From the NCBI RefSeq assembly GCF_003258315.1, contig NZ_CP030032.1, forward strand, positions 1,874,001 to 1,938,000: 64,000 bases of DNA, in the 5' to 3' direction. Origin of the DNA: Bradymonas sediminis. Its GTDB lineage: Bacteria > Myxococcota_A > Bradymonadia > Bradymonadales > Bradymonadaceae. Below the pieces are notes generated by a model. That model saw only the letters and a program-made list of their open reading frames with translations, did no database searches and had not been told where the DNA came from. Below are positions 48,669-58,799 of this stretch, piece by piece (position 1 is the stretch's first letter; each line of letters begins with the position of its first letter). The position numbers and the translations under genes were made by a program.

Positions 48669-49643
48669 ATGAAGATTTTTTCGGGAAGCAGTCACCCAGT
48701 ATTCGCCAACGCGATATGCGACTATCTCGGCCTCGAGCTCGCTAAGAGCCACACGGTGACGTTCAGCAACGAGAACTTGCTGGTCCAAATCGACGAGAAT
48801 GTGCGCGGCGGGGATGTCTTCGTCGTGCAGACCTCGTGTCCGCCGGTGCATACGCACCTGGTCGAGACGCTGATCATGATCGACGCCTTGCGTTCGGCGT
48901 CGGCCAGTCGAATCACGGCCGTGATTCCCTACTTCCCCTATATCCGAAGCGACAAAAAAGACCGCCCGCGCATCAGTATTGCGGCGCGGCTGATGGCGGA
49001 TCTGTTTGAGACCGCCGGCGCCGACCGCGTGCTGACGATGGACCTGCACACCGCGCAATCCCAGGGCTTCTTCCGCATGCCGTGTGACCAATTGCAGGGC
49101 GCCGGGCCGCTGTCGGAGCGGCTGCGCGAGGAGCGCGAGGACAACTGGGTCCTGGTCGCCGCCGACGCCGGTGAGGCGAAGGACGTGGGGCGTTTTGCCA
49201 ACCTGCTCGACCTGCCGATGGCCATTATCGACAAGCGCCGCGATGGCGATGACGATCGGGCTCGCGCGGTCAACCTGATCGGCGACGTGAAGGGACGCGT
49301 GGCGGTTGTCATCGACGACGAAATCGCCAGCGGCGGCACGCTCATCGAAGCGGCGACTTTCCTGAAGCAGCACGGCGCAACCAAAGTGATGGCGGCGGCG
49401 ACCCACCCGGTATTTAGCTCCAACGCGGTTCAGCGCATCAACAACGCGCCCATCGACAAGGTCCTGGTCACCGATACGATTCCGCTGCCGACCGACGTCA
49501 CCAGCGATAAGATCGAAGTGGTCTCGGTCGCGCCGATGTTCGCCGAGGCGATCGCGCGCATCCGCACCGGCACCTCCATCAGCGGTATCTTTGAGCCGGA
49601 TATCGTGCGTGAGATTCTTAAAAAGGGTCATATCGCAGATTGA
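48669..49643 (+). CDS. Ribose-phosphate pyrophosphokinase-like protein, divergent
   Basis: The 324-residue protein is a PRPP synthetase homologue with two phosphoribosyltransferase-like domains: PYFPYIRSDKKDRPRIS (equivalent of YxRQDRKxxPREP), TMDLHTAQSQGFF, and VIDDEIASGGTLIEAA, matching the PRPP loop (VDDxIDTGGT in standard enzymes). The flexible-loop and KFxNGE signatures are altered (FSNENLLVQID). It may be a PRPP synthase of a distinct class or a paralogue; no other prs gene is in the window. It is monocistronic with a terminator after it. Confidence 0.8.
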   Translation: MKIFSGSSHPVFANAICDYLGLELAKSHTVTFSNENLLVQIDENVRGGDVFVVQTSCPPVHTHLVETLIMIDALRSASASRITAVIPYFPYIRSDKKDRPRISIAARLMADLFETAGADRVLTMDLHTAQSQGFFRMPCDQLQGAGPLSERLREEREDNWVLVAADAGEAKDVGRFANLLDLPMAIIDKRRDGDDDRARAVNLIGDVKGRVAVVIDDEIASGGTLIEAATFLKQHGATKVMAAATHPVFSSNAVQRINNAPIDKVLVTDTIPLPTDVTSDKIEVVSVAPMFAEAIARIRTGTSISGIFEPDIVREILKKGHIAD

Positions 49644-49814: not shown

Positions 49815-49840
49815 ATTTTAACAATTTTGAGCGAGTCGTG

Positions 49841-52800
49841 ATGCCTTTGATCCAATCGATGAATTCTAAGCGTATCGGTGTGTTTTCTCGTCGCTGGGCG
49901 GCAATGGCGCTGAGCGCCGCGCTCCTCTTGCTGGCGTTCAACGTGCATGCCCAGCAGGGCGCGTCGCAAGCGGCGCCCGCGATTCCCGACGCCCTGAATT
50001 CATGGGTTGGCTGGGCCACCCACGGGGAGAACGACCTTAATTGCCCACGTGGGACCTCGGGCGAGAGGACCTGTGTGTGGCCTGGGGATCTTTCGCTCGA
50101 TGCCAACCCACGAGGCGCTCAATTCTCGATGCGCGTCTGGCTTGCTGCGCCCGCGTTGGTTCGACTTCCGGGGGACGCGAGCCGCTGGCCGCAAGATGTC
50201 CAGGTGGGGGGAGGCCTGGCGATGGTCCAGGAGCAGGGCGGTTATCCGGCTATTCGACTCCCCGCCGGTGAGCACCGGATTGCGGGCGATTTTGAGTGGC
50301 GAGCGCTGCCCGAATTGATGCCTATTCCGGCCGAAGTTGGCCAGATTTCGCTGTCCATCGACGGGACTTCGGTCCCGCGCCCGCAGCTCGACGCCCAGGG
50401 GCGCCTCTGGATGAATCGCAACGCCAGCGCCGCCGGTGTCGCCGAGACCGATAGCGCCCGGGCGTCGATCTATCGGCGCATCGACGACGGCGTGCCGCTC
50501 ACCATCACCACGCGCATTTCGCTCAATGTGTCGGGTAAGGCGCGAAAGATTCAGCTCGGCAAGATATTACTGCCGCAGAGCCGCGCCACCGACATCAAAA
50601 GCGCGTTGCCGGTTCAGCTCGACTCCACCGGCAATGCTTCGGTGTATAGTCGGCCGGGCACCCAAGAGATCATCGTGACCGCCGTGATTAGTGCCGATGT
50701 CGCCGAACTCTCCGCGCCCACGCCGGGGCCCGATTTTTACGACCCCCAGGAAGTCTGGATATGGATTCCCAATGAGGTCTCGCGCTCGGTTGAGCTCGAC
50801 GGCCTGAGCCTGGTCGACCCGAACCGCACCTCCTTGCCCGCCGACTGGCACGGCCATCGCACCTTCCTTGCCGAACCGGGGCAGAAGCTCAGCCTTCAGG
50901 TCGTGCGTCGCGGCGTGGTCGAAACACCGAACTCGATTCATCTTCACCGGCGCATCTGGCTGGACACCGACGGGCAGGGGCTCAGCATTCGCGACGACCT
51001 CTCGGGCACCCTCTCGCAGGATTGGCGCCTCGACTACGCCGGCAGCGCGAAGCTCGGGCATCTTCAGAGCAGCGACGGAACCGGCGGAGTGTTGATCACC
51101 GAGAACCCCGACAACGGCTTGCGCGGCGTCGAGATCCGCCAGGCCAAATTTGATATCCAGGCAGACCTTCGCCAGGAAGACTTCTCGGCCACGATGCCCG
51201 CGCTTGGTTGGAATCATGATGTTCAGCGGCTCAGCGCCGAGCTATTTTTACCCCCGGGCTGGACGCTCGTAAGCGCCCAGGGGGTCGACGATGTCTCGGG
51301 GACCTGGTGGGACTCCTGGACGCTGTGGGACTTCTTTTTTGTGCTGATGGTGGCCCTGAGCATCGGAAAGTTGCTGGGGTGGCGCTGGGTCCCGCTGGTG
51401 ATCCTGGCGCTTGTGTTGAGCCACGGTCACTCCGGCGCGCCGACCTGGCTTTGGTTCCATCTGATCGCCACGCTCGCCCTGATGCGCGTGCTCCCCGATG
51501 GGTGGTGGCGCCGAGGCGTCTATATCTGGCGCGCGGTCGCGCTGTTGGCGCTATTCGGGGTCCTCGCGAGCTTCGTTCACCGCCAGGTGCGCGCCGGGCT
51601 CTACCCGCAAATCGACCCGGATGCCTTTCGGACGGGGACGGCGACTTCCTTCGCTCCGATGGGAGGGATGAGCGCCCCTTCGTCGGCGATCTCCGAAAAG
51701 GCGGCCTTTGATTATGTCGAGGAAATGGCGCCGGTCGAAGATGAGGATGGGTCGGCGGGCTCCGCCGGCCTGGTCAAAAAGAGGGGGAAAGCGGACGTAT
51801 CGAACCTCTCAAAACTTGGCTCTTATTCGGACTATCGCCAGTTGAATCAGGTGGACCCGAAGGCGGTCGTGCAAACCGGGCCAGGGCTGCCGACCTGGAC
51901 ATGGAATCAATGGTCACTTCAGTGGAGCGGACCGGTGCACAAGGACCATGAGATGCGCCTGTGGTTGCTGTCGCCGACCGTGAATCGTGGGCTGACTTTC
52001 GTGCGAAGTTTGCTGCTCATCCTGCTGGCGCTGCTGATGTTGCGCGGCGCCGAGACTACCTGGCGAAAGCACGATGATGGCGATGCAAAAGAGCCGGGGG
52101 AGGGCGATATGAAGAAGCCCAGTTTTTGGAAGCCGCTAATGAATAGTTCGCTGGTGCTCCTGGCGCTCGGCGCGGCGCTCGGGGTGCCCTCTCCCGCGCA
52201 TGCGCAGGTCACTTCAGAGGCCTCAAACGCGTCAGCGACGCCGGGCTCGACCATTCCCAGCGATGCGCTACTCGAGGAGCTGCGCGAGCGGGTGCTCGCC
52301 GCAAATAATTGCGATGGGCAATGCGTCGTCGTCAGCCGGGCTGATTTCGAAGTCAACGGTCTGGCGGTCAAAATCAGCGCTGAGGTACACGCCCAAAAAG
52401 ACGCGGCCTGGCACCTGCCGGGGCCGGCCGACATGCTGCAAATCGAGTCCGTGCTGCTTAATGGAAAGTTGACGCATCAACTTCGGCGAAGCGCCGACGG
52501 CCTAACCCTGCTGCGCATCCCACAGGGAACACATCGGGTCGAGGTCAACGCGACGTTGCCGAATGTGAACGTCGCGACCATTCAATTTAGCCCGCAGACC
52601 CGCCCTAAATTCGTGAAATTTGCCAGTACGGATTGGACGGTCGACGGCGTCAACGCAAACGGTGTGCCCGAAAATTCGCTTCAATGGACCCGGAGCCGGG
52701 ACTCTGATGCCGCCGAGGAGAACACGAGCGCCGCGGCGGAGAGCACCACCGCGCCGCCCTGGTATCAGGTCGACCGGCGCATCGCGCTTGGGTTACCCTG

Positions 52801-54337
52801 GAAAGTTTACACATCAGTGACGCGCCGAGACACCACGCGCCCCCAGATGGTGAGCATCCCGCTGCTGACCGGCGAAAAGGTGATAAGCGACGGGTTTCGC
52901 GTCGATAAGGGCGAGATTCTGGTGAATTTTGAGCGTGGCGTGGCGAATATCGTCTTCACCAGCGAATTGCCGATTCAGGAGAAGATTGAGCTGGTCGCGC
53001 CTGTCGAGAAACCCTGGACTGAAACCTGGATGCTTCAATGCAGCCGCATCTGGGCCTGCGAGACCTCGGGATTGCCGCCGGTGTCGCTGGTCAGCGAGGG
53101 CGGTGACGCCGAGGGCGCCAGCATCGCCCAGCCCACCTGGAAGCCGTGGCCGGGCGAGACGCTGAGCATCCAGGTCACCCGGCCGGTGGGCGCCGACGGG
53201 CAATCTTCGACCGTCGAGAATGTCGACTATACCGTGACCCCCGGGCAGCGCCTGATGGAGGCGACCCTGAGCCTCACGATTCGCGCCTCACAGGGCGGAT
53301 GGCAGGTCGTAACGTTGCCCGAGGGCGCGACCCTGCAGACCGCGAGCATCGACGGCGAGGAGCAGAGCCTGCGCTTGAGCGAGCAAAAGGTGAGCCTGCC
53401 GCTTCGCCCCGGCAAGCATGTCTATCTTCTGGAGTGGCAACAGCCCTGGGAGCGCGGATTCGCCGAGCGCGTGCCGCAGATCGACATCGGCAGCGAGGCG
53501 GTCAACGTGAATATCAATATCCAGCGCGGCCAGCAGCGCTGGCTCCTCTGGGCGACAGGACCCGCCTGGGGGCCCGCTATCATGTTCTGGACACACCTGG
53601 TCATCCTGCTGATTCTCGGGTTCTTATTGAGCCGATTGCGCGGCTTGCCGCTCAAGACCCCGGAGTGGTTTCTCTTGCTCCTTGGCCTATCGCAACTTCC
53701 CTATATCGCGTTGATACCGATCGTTTCGTGGTTTGTGTTTTTGACGCTGCGCGAGAAGAAGCCGGAGGAGAATTGGGGGCTGTTTAACCTCACTCAGCTT
53801 GCCCTGATCTTTTTGACCCTGATCGCCACGGGCACCCTATACGGAGCGATTCATATCAACCTCTTGCTCGACATCGATATGCAGGTGCGCGGGGCAGATT
53901 CGACCGATTATCTGCTCAAATGGTATGTCGACCGAAGCGGCGCCAAGCTCGCGACGCCCGCTATTTTCTCGCTCCCAATTCTAGTCTGGCGGGTGCTGAT
54001 GTTGGTGTGGGCGCTGTGGCTGGTGAGTCGCCTGCTGAGCTGGATTCCCTGGGGATGGCGCGCGTATAGCTCCGGCGGGCTGTGGCGCTCGAACCCGAAC
54101 CCGCGTCGCGGACCGAAAGGTCCGGGCCCGGTCGATGCTGCGCCGCCCGTTGCTCAGGCCAGCAATGCTCAGCCGCCTGCCGGCGCGCCCGACGCTGGCG
54201 AAGCCGAGGAAGAGAATGATCGCGGCGAGAATGGCGTCGTGTCTTCGGCCAAGGTTGAGGCCCGCGACACAGGCGTGCCGGGAGAGTCGCAAGAGGCGGG
54301 AAAGGTTGAACCCCCAAAGGATAATAAAGAGAGCTAG
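49841..54337 (+). CDS. 1498-residue membrane protein with an internal tandem duplication
   Basis: The protein begins with a signal peptide (WAAMALSAALLLLAFNVHAQQ). A periplasmic beta-rich region (about 30-490) is followed by a membrane bundle (about 490-580) and a further TM near 710-740. At about 758 an ATG and MKKPSFWKPLMNSS open an internal signal-like segment (SLVLLALGAALGVPSPAHAQ), and the arrangement repeats to the C-terminus with TM bundles at about 1250-1420. The two halves align: DRRIALGLPW against YRRIDDGVPL; RIPQGTHRVEVNATLP against RLPAGEHRIAGDFE; the MQVRGADSTDYLLKWYVDRSG region against SLQWSGPVHKDHEMRLWLLS. The C-terminal tail is acidic. The fold and function are unrecognised. 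Start: the ATG at 49841 (GTG at 49838). Confidence 0.8.
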   Translation: MPLIQSMNSKRIGVFSRRWAAMALSAALLLLAFNVHAQQGASQAAPAIPDALNSWVGWATHGENDLNCPRGTSGERTCVWPGDLSLDANPRGAQFSMRVWLAAPALVRLPGDASRWPQDVQVGGGLAMVQEQGGYPAIRLPAGEHRIAGDFEWRALPELMPIPAEVGQISLSIDGTSVPRPQLDAQGRLWMNRNASAAGVAETDSARASIYRRIDDGVPLTITTRISLNVSGKARKIQLGKILLPQSRATDIKSALPVQLDSTGNASVYSRPGTQEIIVTAVISADVAELSAPTPGPDFYDPQEVWIWIPNEVSRSVELDGLSLVDPNRTSLPADWHGHRTFLAEPGQKLSLQVVRRGVVETPNSIHLHRRIWLDTDGQGLSIRDDLSGTLSQDWRLDYAGSAKLGHLQSSDGTGGVLITENPDNGLRGVEIRQAKFDIQADLRQEDFSATMPALGWNHDVQRLSAELFLPPGWTLVSAQGVDDVSGTWWDSWTLWDFFFVLMVALSIGKLLGWRWVPLVILALVLSHGHSGAPTWLWFHLIATLALMRVLPDGWWRRGVYIWRAVALLALFGVLASFVHRQVRAGLYPQIDPDAFRTGTATSFAPMGGMSAPSSAISEKAAFDYVEEMAPVEDEDGSAGSAGLVKKRGKADVSNLSKLGSYSDYRQLNQVDPKAVVQTGPGLPTWTWNQWSLQWSGPVHKDHEMRLWLLSPTVNRGLTFVRSLLLILLALLMLRGAETTWRKHDDGDAKEPGEGDMKKPSFWKPLMNSSLVLLALGAALGVPSPAHAQVTSEASNASATPGSTIPSDALLEELRERVLAANNCDGQCVVVSRADFEVNGLAVKISAEVHAQKDAAWHLPGPADMLQIESVLLNGKLTHQLRRSADGLTLLRIPQGTHRVEVNATLPNVNVATIQFSPQTRPKFVKFASTDWTVDGVNANGVPENSLQWTRSRDSDAAEENTSAAAESTTAPPWYQVDRRIALGLPWKVYTSVTRRDTTRPQMVSIPLLTGEKVISDGFRVDKGEILVNFERGVANIVFTSELPIQEKIELVAPVEKPWTETWMLQCSRIWACETSGLPPVSLVSEGGDAEGASIAQPTWKPWPGETLSIQVTRPVGADGQSSTVENVDYTVTPGQRLMEATLSLTIRASQGGWQVVTLPEGATLQTASIDGEEQSLRLSEQKVSLPLRPGKHVYLLEWQQPWERGFAERVPQIDIGSEAVNVNINIQRGQQRWLLWATGPAWGPAIMFWTHLVILLILGFLLSRLRGLPLKTPEWFLLLLGLSQLPYIALIPIVSWFVFLTLREKKPEENWGLFNLTQLALIFLTLIATGTLYGAIHINLLLDIDMQVRGADSTDYLLKWYVDRSGAKLATPAIFSLPILVWRVLMLVWALWLVSRLLSWIPWGWRAYSSGGLWRSNPNPRRGPKGPGPVDAAPPVAQASNAQPPAGAPDAGEAEEENDRGENGVVSSAKVEARDTGVPGESQEAGKVEPPKDNKES

Positions 54338-56750: not shown

Positions 56751-57046
56751 ATATCTTACCAGCTTTTGTTCTGAGTTTTACCACGTGAGTCGTGGTGTCG
56801 GCGCGGGCGAATGTCGCGAGACGCGAAACTTCGCCGCCTCAAAGGCTCTGGGTTCTAGGTGAGGGCAACACTTTGTGCAACGCCATTTTTGATTTAGATT
56901 GCATCCCCAACTTTTATGCATCATAGTTCGCCGCCACAAATGGACGATGCCTTGACGTTATGCAATCCGTTAAACTAACGTCCATCCCGTCAAACGTCCG
57001 ATTTAGTTGGTTTTTTTTAAGTTTCTTTATAGAGGCGAGACTAGTG

Positions 57047-57841
57047 ATGAAATTGAAACAATCCGTGTTGAAATATGGCTTCCTCCTTCTGACCGCACTT
57101 CTTTTCCTTCAGATCGGTTGCGGCCCGGATTATCCTAAATGTGAAACCGATGACCATTGCATCGACAGTGAGCAAGGACAATCGGAAGACCGACTTTATT
57201 GCGTCAACGGCCTGTGCCAGCAGTGCCGCACCGACGAGAGCTGCGGTGATCCGTCGCTGGAATGTAACGCCGGTGTCTGCGAGCAGATCATCGGATATTG
57301 CGCCTCGGTGAGCGATTGCCCCGGCAACCAAAAATGCCGCGATAACCGCTGTGGTTCGGAGTGTCTGTCCAACGACGAGTGCTCGGGAGACCAGATCTGT
57401 GACGGCGGAAACTGCGTCGCCAAGCCGGAATGCTCCAGCAACGGCGACTGCGCCGACGGCCAGAACTGCGACAACGGTCAGTGTGTCGCGGCTCCCGTGG
57501 CGACCTGCCAGTTGGAGACCGTTTATTTCGACTATGACGCCTCGGCGATCAAATCGAACGAGCGCAACACCCTCAACGCCAACGCGCAGTGCATCAAAGA
57601 CGAGAACCTCTCGGTCGAAGTCGTCGGGAACGCCGACGAGCGTGGCACCACCGAGTATAATATCGCCCTGGGCGAGCGTCGCGCCAACAGCGTCAAAGCC
57701 TATCTGAAGCGCCTCGGGGTCAACAGCAACTCCGTGGACACCATCTCCTACGGTGACCAGCGTCTCGTGCGCCAGTGCGGCGAGCAGGGCGCAGAGAGCT
57801 GCCACCAGCAGAACCGCCGCGTTGAGTTCAACGTGCGATAA
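57047..57841 (+). CDS. Pal-like OmpA-domain lipoprotein with cysteine-rich insert
   Basis: The 264-residue lipoprotein (ATG at 57047; the in-frame start at 56960 is before the signal) has lipobox LQIGC. Between the lipid anchor and the OmpA domain lie about 100 residues of cysteine repeats of the form CxxxxxCxxxxxCxxGxC (CRTDESCGDPSLECNAGVC, CASVSDCPGNQKCRDNRC, CLSNDECSGDQICDGGNC). The C-terminal OmpA domain is complete: VYFDYDASAIK, VEVVGNADERGTTEYNIALGERRA, RRVEF. Pal links outer membrane to peptidoglycan with the Tol system. It is followed by a CpoB-like gene, the usual Tol-Pal partner, but no tol genes are present. Confidence 0.88.
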   Translation: MKLKQSVLKYGFLLLTALLFLQIGCGPDYPKCETDDHCIDSEQGQSEDRLYCVNGLCQQCRTDESCGDPSLECNAGVCEQIIGYCASVSDCPGNQKCRDNRCGSECLSNDECSGDQICDGGNCVAKPECSSNGDCADGQNCDNGQCVAAPVATCQLETVYFDYDASAIKSNERNTLNANAQCIKDENLSVEVVGNADERGTTEYNIALGERRANSVKAYLKRLGVNSNSVDTISYGDQRLVRQCGEQGAESCHQQNRRVEFNVR

Positions 57842-57876
57842 GTTTGACGGATAAGGCGTTTTCGCGCTAACACCGG

Positions 57877-57908
57877 GCCCGGCGCAATCTTCTGCGCCGG
57901 GCTTTTTT
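57877..57908 (+). terminator. Rho-independent terminator after the Pal-like gene
   Basis: GCCCGGCGCA pairs with TGCGCCGGGC over a six-base loop and is followed by T6. It separates pal from the CpoB-like gene. Confidence 0.9.
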
Positions 57909-57968
57909 GCGCGTATATTAGTGCAATGCTTCTTTCCATCCCCAATTAAATGTCGCGTTCAGGCGAAG

Positions 57969-58799
57969 ATGATGAAAAACAAAAGTGTCGCATCACGGTA
58001 TGGATCGCTGATTTTGCTCACGGTTTCGCTGGTGCTGTCGGGCTGTGTGCCGATGTGGACCGGCGATGAGATGCGCGAGGATATCGCGGCCATTCAGGCC
58101 GAGCAGCAGGCCAGCAAAGAGAGCTTTGGCGCTGAGCGAGAGCGCATGACCGAGATGATCGCCTCGGCCCGCAAAGACGTCAGCGAGCTCAAGGAGATTC
58201 TGGGCGAGGCGCGGGCGCTCTTGCAGCGAAATAACGCCGACCTTGGCGTCGAAGTTCAGAATAACCGCCAGGACCTCAGCAAGCTTAACGGCACGATTGA
58301 GGAGCTTGAGTTCAAGATTAAACGGCTTGAGCAAGATCTGGAGCTCTTCAAAGAGGACGTCGATATTCGCTTTGAAGACGGCGGCGCAGGCTCGAGCTTG
58401 CCGACCGAGGCCGAGCCGCTCTTTCAGCATGGCCAGAAGGCCTACGACGCGAATCGGTTTCGCGACGCGCGCAACGCCTTCGAGCAATATCTGAAGTCCT
58501 ACGCCTCGGGCAAACACGCCGCCGACGCCCAATATCTGCTTGGCATGAGCTATTATCGCGAGAGCCAGTGGGTGACCTCGGTCTTCGAATTCCAAAAAGT
58601 CGTCAAGAATCACGAGCGCTCCGCGCGGGTTGCGGACGCCTCCTATCATATCGGGGTCGCGCTGATGAAGATGGGGCGCTGCAAGCAGGCAGGGGCCTGG
58701 TTCGATCTGTTGGTCGATGAATACGCTAGCTCCAAATGGGTGGGTCAGGCGCGCCAGCACAAGGCCGACATCAAAGCCGGCAAGTGTAGCGAGTCCTAA
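57969..58799 (+). CDS. CpoB/YbgF-like TPR lipoprotein
   Basis: The 276-residue protein starts MMKNKSVASRYGSLILLTVSLVLSGC with lipobox LSGC. It has an N-terminal coiled coil (about 40-145: IAAIQAEQQASKESFG, KLNGTIEELEFKIKRLEQDLEL) and C-terminal TPRs (about 155-275: PLFQHGQKAYDANRFRDARNAF, YLLGMSYYRESQW). This is the CpoB/YbgF layout, though CpoB itself is usually secreted, not lipid modified. CpoB coordinates outer-membrane constriction with peptidoglycan synthesis. The start codon could also be the next ATG (57972). Confidence 0.85.
   Translation: MMKNKSVASRYGSLILLTVSLVLSGCVPMWTGDEMREDIAAIQAEQQASKESFGAERERMTEMIASARKDVSELKEILGEARALLQRNNADLGVEVQNNRQDLSKLNGTIEELEFKIKRLEQDLELFKEDVDIRFEDGGAGSSLPTEAEPLFQHGQKAYDANRFRDARNAFEQYLKSYASGKHAADAQYLLGMSYYRESQWVTSVFEFQKVVKNHERSARVADASYHIGVALMKMGRCKQAGAWFDLLVDEYASSKWVGQARQHKADIKAGKCSES

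Follow-up and report, generated by a model that had tools for sequence, protein, structure and literature searches.

In the window, by which we mean the whole stretch of 64,000 nucleotides of Bradymonas sediminis DNA that was analyzed, positions 49841 to 54337 of the plus strand form one open reading frame. It codes for 1498 amino acids counted from the ATG at 49841 (a GTG at 49838 is an alternative start), and its stop codon ends at 54337. The frame is a real gene, conserved at about 30 to 56% identity and without internal stops in most relatives. A ribose-phosphate pyrophosphokinase-like frame lies upstream on the same strand (48669–49643), and the frame downstream is convergent. Also downstream, positions 56960–58799 (+) hold what look like a Pal-like gene (a Cys-rich region followed by an OmpA-like C-terminus) and a gene for a YbgF/CpoB-like repeat protein. 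The 1498-residue protein has no match above the curated cut-off in Pfam, no match in NCBIfam, and no significant sequence match in the PDB, so that an earlier note on this DNA, in which no known family had been recognized, was borne out for these three collections.

A predicted layout that occurs twice in one protein

The open reading frame and the survey of its relatives mark the entire frame (49841–54337) as the probable precursor of two halves, whose parts are all encoded on the plus strand. The N-half opens with a signal peptide (residues 1–37, 49841–49951), for which the sequence and the statistics of N-terminal sites make VHA|QQG the likely cleavage site. It is followed by a predicted periplasmic beta-rich region (residues 68–480, 50042–51280) of about three beta-sandwich-like domains with the conserved cysteines Cys68 and Cys78, delimited from the AlphaFold model, the alignment, and the similarity to the C-half. 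AlphaFold and hydropathy then place membrane helices 1 to 4 at residues 495–587 (51323–51601), and a conserved QTGPGLPxWxW hairpin precedes membrane helix 5 (residues 712–738, 51974–52054), as seen in the model and from conservation.

A charged linker that varies among relatives and is predicted to be cytosolic (residues 739–768, 52055–52144) leads to the second half; it holds a nonconserved ATG at 52109 with GGGGGAGGG upstream. The next residues, 769–788 (52145–52204), form the h- and c-region of a putative internal signal peptide, SSLVLLALGAALGVPSPAHA, with a predicted signal peptidase I site after residue 788, as judged from site statistics and from a relative in which this segment is a free-standing N-terminal signal. 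The C-half continues with its own beta-rich region, also predicted to be periplasmic (residues 829–1239, 52325–53557; AlphaFold, alignment, and similarity to the N-half), again of about three beta-sandwich-like domains, with the conserved Cys824 and Cys828 just before it. Membrane helices 1 to 4 (residues 1249–1342, 53585–53866; AlphaFold and hydropathy) and a beta hairpin with an LxWYxDR motif plus membrane helix 5 (residues 1358–1409, 53912–54067; AlphaFold and conservation) complete the bundle. By sequence and alignment, the C-terminal tail (54068–54334) is Pro- and acid-rich, poorly conserved, and predicted to be cytosolic. We observed that this tail (+) is rich in Pro, Ala, and Glu and varies in length among relatives.

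AlphaFold models of the halves reached a mean pLDDT of 83.4 (N-half) and 90.6 (C-half). Both begin with an N-terminal helix and continue with about 30 strands, at least four helices, a beta-hairpin, and a long last helix, arranged in each half as a beta-rich region, four membrane helices, the hairpin, and a fifth membrane helix. This agrees with the proposal in the earlier note that the halves share a layout, for which it had suggested structure prediction as a check. The N-half model alone contains an additional loop of low confidence (model residues 575–660). In the alignment, each half has a conserved cysteine pair near its mature N-terminus (68/78 and 824/828).

The two halves are homologous

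To compare the halves, we used profiles of 81 rows (N-half) and 80 rows (C-half). HHalign aligned them over 445 collinear columns with a probability of 97.9, an E-value of 5.4e-13, a score of 116, and 18% identity (80-row profiles); an earlier profile comparison of the two halves had given a probability of 97.4. Decoys scored 23–28 when one profile was reversed and 21–31 in ten block shuffles, with probabilities of at most 3.2. The duplication is therefore real: the self-alignment found significant similarity, and the halves are homologous and collinear, as expected of the fused tandem paralogs that had been suggested from the letters alone.

The similarity sits in the beta-rich part, which alone gives a probability of 97.5. 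The membrane bundles have no sequence similarity detectable by HHalign (probability 1.1); their elements follow the same order in the AlphaFold models. Pairwise comparison of the beta domains, with borders set by eye from the models, matched them in order (N1–C1, 97.6; N2–C2, 87) and also out of order (N1–C3, 91.5; C1–C3, 92.4), and because of the latter matches some of the beta domains are repeats of one another. Of the three pairs of conserved blocks named in the earlier note, HHalign puts two in register (LPAGEHRIAG with IPQGTHRVEV, and YRRIDDGVPL with DRRIALGLPW). It does not do so for the third, VHKDHEMRLWLLS with STDYLLKWYVDRSG: both are hairpins before membrane helix 5 in their respective halves, but the strands picked out are not equivalent.

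The fused form is widespread

Relatives with about 32 to 56% identity were found in 25 of 58 genomes (the organism itself and the relatives surveyed), and a genome scan found at least 532 loci in a collection of 84,980 species. They belong to Myxococcota, Gammaproteobacteria (Methylococcales, Thiotrichaceae, and Chromatiales), Desulfobacterota, an Acidobacteria MAG, and others; one betaproteobacterial relative lies on an Azoarcus plasmid and is annotated as a hypothetical protein. The best 80 of the at least 532 loci, a choice of best matches that favors fused forms, each hold a single open reading frame, usually of about 1350 to 1550 amino acids, except for truncated contigs and one frameshift. 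To offset this bias, we searched again in genomes drawn evenly, this time using only the C-half as query. Matches occurred in 37 of 274 genomes in the class of Methylobacter (two of the 37 weak), 19 of 297 in the phylum of a Desulfobacteraceae genome, 85 of 284 in the phylum of the window's organism, and 35 of 43 in the order of G095, a Thiotrichaceae genome described below. Nearly all frames uncut by contig ends were about 1330 to 1600 amino acids long; relatives are almost always one frame of about 1400 residues.

Several further matches deserve mention in their own right. Three proteins of 1025–1124 amino acids (L120:250-3324 (-), G340:C159, and G043:C35) matched the C-half profile weakly (E 4e-9 to 5e-4). 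The L120 protein appears to have many beta domains and C-terminal membrane helices, and the three probably form a wider superfamily with the present family. A copy on a contig labeled Klebsiella pneumoniae (L083, a MAG) groups with Myxococcota in the tree and probably comes from a mislabeled bin. The C-half, whole or in fragments, occurs more than once in genome G372, which gave four matches (L134; G372:C166 and C278). A 2060-residue frame in G197 was considered as a fusion to an extra domain and rejected, as it has no Pfam match there and looks like an open frame running over the upstream gene.

A conserved signal peptidase motif between the halves

In practically every relative, a variable linker after membrane helix 5 of the N-half is followed by a hydrophobic segment ending in small-x-Ala before the C-half begins. 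In B. sediminis this segment ends PAHA|Q at residue 788, which agrees with the internal signal-like segment described in the earlier note. When the best-scoring −3/−1 motif was taken in each of 95 distinct relatives, position −1 was Ala in 94 and position −3 was Ala in 61 and Ser, Val, or Thr in 28 more (89 of 95 together). Position +1 was Q, D, or E in about 70 of the 95. Pro is common at −6/−7, and −2, −4, and −5 vary freely; because these surrounding positions vary, the small-x-Ala site does not reflect mere overall conservation. The internal site and the N-terminal signal have the same median motif score (6.24 bits), and eight other membrane segments scored alike gave medians of −3.2 to 3.3. 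Picking the best motif per row flatters the 94 of 95, but it flatters the control segments alike, so the comparison is fair. B. sediminis itself carries two genes for signal peptidase I.

The segment might instead be an uncleaved signal-anchor, an eleventh membrane helix in one working chain of two fused paralogs. Its hydropathy allows this (19-residue median of 1.85, against 1.78–2.58 for the transmembrane helices), as does the finding that almost every relative is a single frame. A membrane anchor, however, needs no small residues at −3 and −1, and these are kept while their neighbors vary; most other membrane segments of the same proteins lack them, and where the halves are split, in G095, a normal signal peptide stands at this place. 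We judge the signal-anchor somewhat unlikely, though it is an alternative to be taken seriously.

The earlier note had raised another possibility, an internal start that makes a separate C-terminal protein. The ATG at 52109 is present with GGGGGAGGG upstream at a suitable spacing, and a normal n-region (MKKPSFWKP) follows, although the codon is that of residue 757 and not of about 758 as had been stated. Among the relatives, however, only 7 of 95 combine a start codon in the linker with a Shine-Dalgarno motif, 46 have a start codon without one, and 42 have no start codon there, and motifs of this kind arise by chance in G+C-rich DNA. As a general mechanism, an internal start thus lacks support, and we consider it improbable that B. 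sediminis uses this ATG to make an extra, separate C-half. Since the cleavage site is conserved and the start codons are not, selection appears to keep a cleavable signal rather than a translation start. This favors cleavage at the internal signal peptide, which the earlier note had not considered, over an internal start as the general mechanism. Finally, we give practically no credence to the fusion being an assembly or recent recombination artifact of two tandem genes, for which nothing speaks beyond the duplicated layout and which is refuted by the same single frame, in conserved order, in at least three phyla.

A natural split in one genome

A search for split homologs, as proposed in the earlier note, gave one clean case among about 170 genomes with a match. 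In G095 (Thiotrichaceae), the N-half is a 713-residue gene whose product ends ...LLFVSWRRTT right after membrane helix 5, and the gene after it is unrelated. The C-half lies on another contig as a 685-residue gene; its product starts with the signal MNFKRKFTYFHLCVWLVGNLFAALTYA|ESV, and GGAGAAAGTCC, containing a Shine-Dalgarno-like GGAG, stands upstream of the ATG. Both breaks lie well inside their contigs, and the cut falls in the linker. The halves can thus exist as separate polypeptides, as seen in this one case. In the tree, G095 nests among 11 Thiotrichaceae rows that form one group (SH-aLRT 100). The other sampled members of this group are fused, including G370, in which the gene is broken by a transposase; because of this nesting the split is probably derived. 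The C-half is probably the part that moved, because the N-half keeps the divergent coiled-coil neighbor seen at other Thiotrichaceae loci. Halves that can be parted in the linker fit a protein that is already processed into two.

Other candidate splits were rejected. G370 holds one gene interrupted by the transposase gene (L131:4259-5296 (-), IS630-like in appearance) near the first membrane helix of the N-half, and the G652 copy is fragmented by frameshifts or stops. Those in G057, G365, G369, G491, G894, G874, G027, G729, and G250 run out at a contig edge or close to one.

Gene neighborhood and fold comparisons

Comparison of the relatives' loci found no conserved gene neighbors, which leaves the label of an undescribed "system", used in the earlier note, unsupported. 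The recurrent neighbors (which by their sequences resemble a TrmN6-type methyltransferase, Mpl, and anthranilate synthase) are confined to few, mostly close relatives, and the divergent coiled-coil gene occurs only at Thiotrichaceae-like loci; a conserved operon was therefore rejected. Exosortase was tried as a functional partner through its co-occurrence with the family across the 274 gammaproteobacterial genomes mentioned above; the counts (19 of 37 against 73 of 237; Fisher p 0.02, with no correction for kinship) were not convincing. No conserved catalytic pattern was recognized in the family.

Foldseek searches of the PDB had ribophorin I/Ost1 as the top hit for the N-half (E 3.0e-7) and for the C-half (E 1.6e-10), with a probability of 1.0, TM-scores of only 0.14–0.29, and a large rmsd. 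Ost1 has a signal peptide, tandem M1-like beta-sandwiches outside, and a membrane anchor of one transmembrane helix. The present protein differs in having five helices per half and no conserved partner gene alongside, and the PDB sequence search found no homology to oligosaccharyltransferase chains. Because the TM-scores are low, we read the match as probably one of domain type, with tandem domains of the same kind in another arrangement, and not as a shared whole fold or membership. M1 aminopeptidase domains are among those that follow in the Foldseek lists. The likeness to their N-terminal beta-sandwich is local (probability 1.00 over about 160 aligned columns), and neither Pfam nor the element order of the models shows a peptidase domain here.

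Discussion

We consider it fairly probable that the 1498-residue chain is a precursor from which signal peptidase I, cutting at the predicted site 788|789, makes two paralogous envelope proteins; this estimate covers the cleaved two-product precursor and not a scaffold role. Its basis is computed: the duplication, the common predicted layout, the conserved internal signal with its cleavage motif, and the natural split. Actual cleavage, a complex, and a scaffold role are what we infer.

In such a precursor, the first signal peptide would start export of the N-half, whose beta domains would fold in the periplasm. The four membrane helices, the periplasmic hairpin, and membrane helix 5 would return the chain to the cytosol, where the short charged linker would lead into the internal signal peptide. 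By the element order of the AlphaFold models, this segment would lie N-in/C-out, as a signal peptide must, and on re-entering the translocon it would leave its C-terminus outside. Signal peptidase I would then cut at 788|789 and release a C-half of the same build, with beta domains, four membrane helices, a hairpin, and membrane helix 5. The two products would be made 1:1 from one message and could assemble into a membrane complex with about six periplasmic beta-sandwich domains and ten transmembrane helices. This complex might be a non-catalytic scaffold or client-binding assembly with a build like that of ribophorin I/Ost1, a role that we suggest only speculatively from the resemblance to non-catalytic scaffold domains.

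To our knowledge, very few bacterial polyproteins are processed at an internal signal peptide, and a search of a paper library for bacterial internal signal peptides or polyproteins found nothing relevant. In Bradyrhizobium, the cytochrome b/c1 precursor FbcH is reportedly cut at one. As in FbcH, the present frame holds two protein modules and an internal n-h-c signal peptide with a conserved −3/−1 site, and in both an internal signal peptide that carries a signal peptidase I site lies between the two membrane proteins of a single bacterial frame. The products of FbcH are said to be unrelated proteins of known function, whereas those predicted here are paralogs of one undescribed family and their cleavage is a prediction. 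The family is absent from Pfam, NCBIfam, and the PDB sequences, and its proposed processing strategy has at least one bacterial precedent.

Taken as a whole, our proposal is a tentative one: a large undescribed polyprotein family spread across phyla, in which a signal peptidase I cut may yield the paralogous pair of subunits for an envelope complex of ten helices. With ribophorin-like domains in the periplasm, this complex would be a scaffold akin in build to the eukaryotic oligosaccharyltransferase subunit. If this is true, the presence of the family, with its paralogous products, in at least three phyla would mean that processing at an internal signal is old and stable, and a testable assembly would be assigned to a widespread uncharacterized protein of about 1400 residues in Methylobacter, Thiomargarita, Nannocystis, and others.
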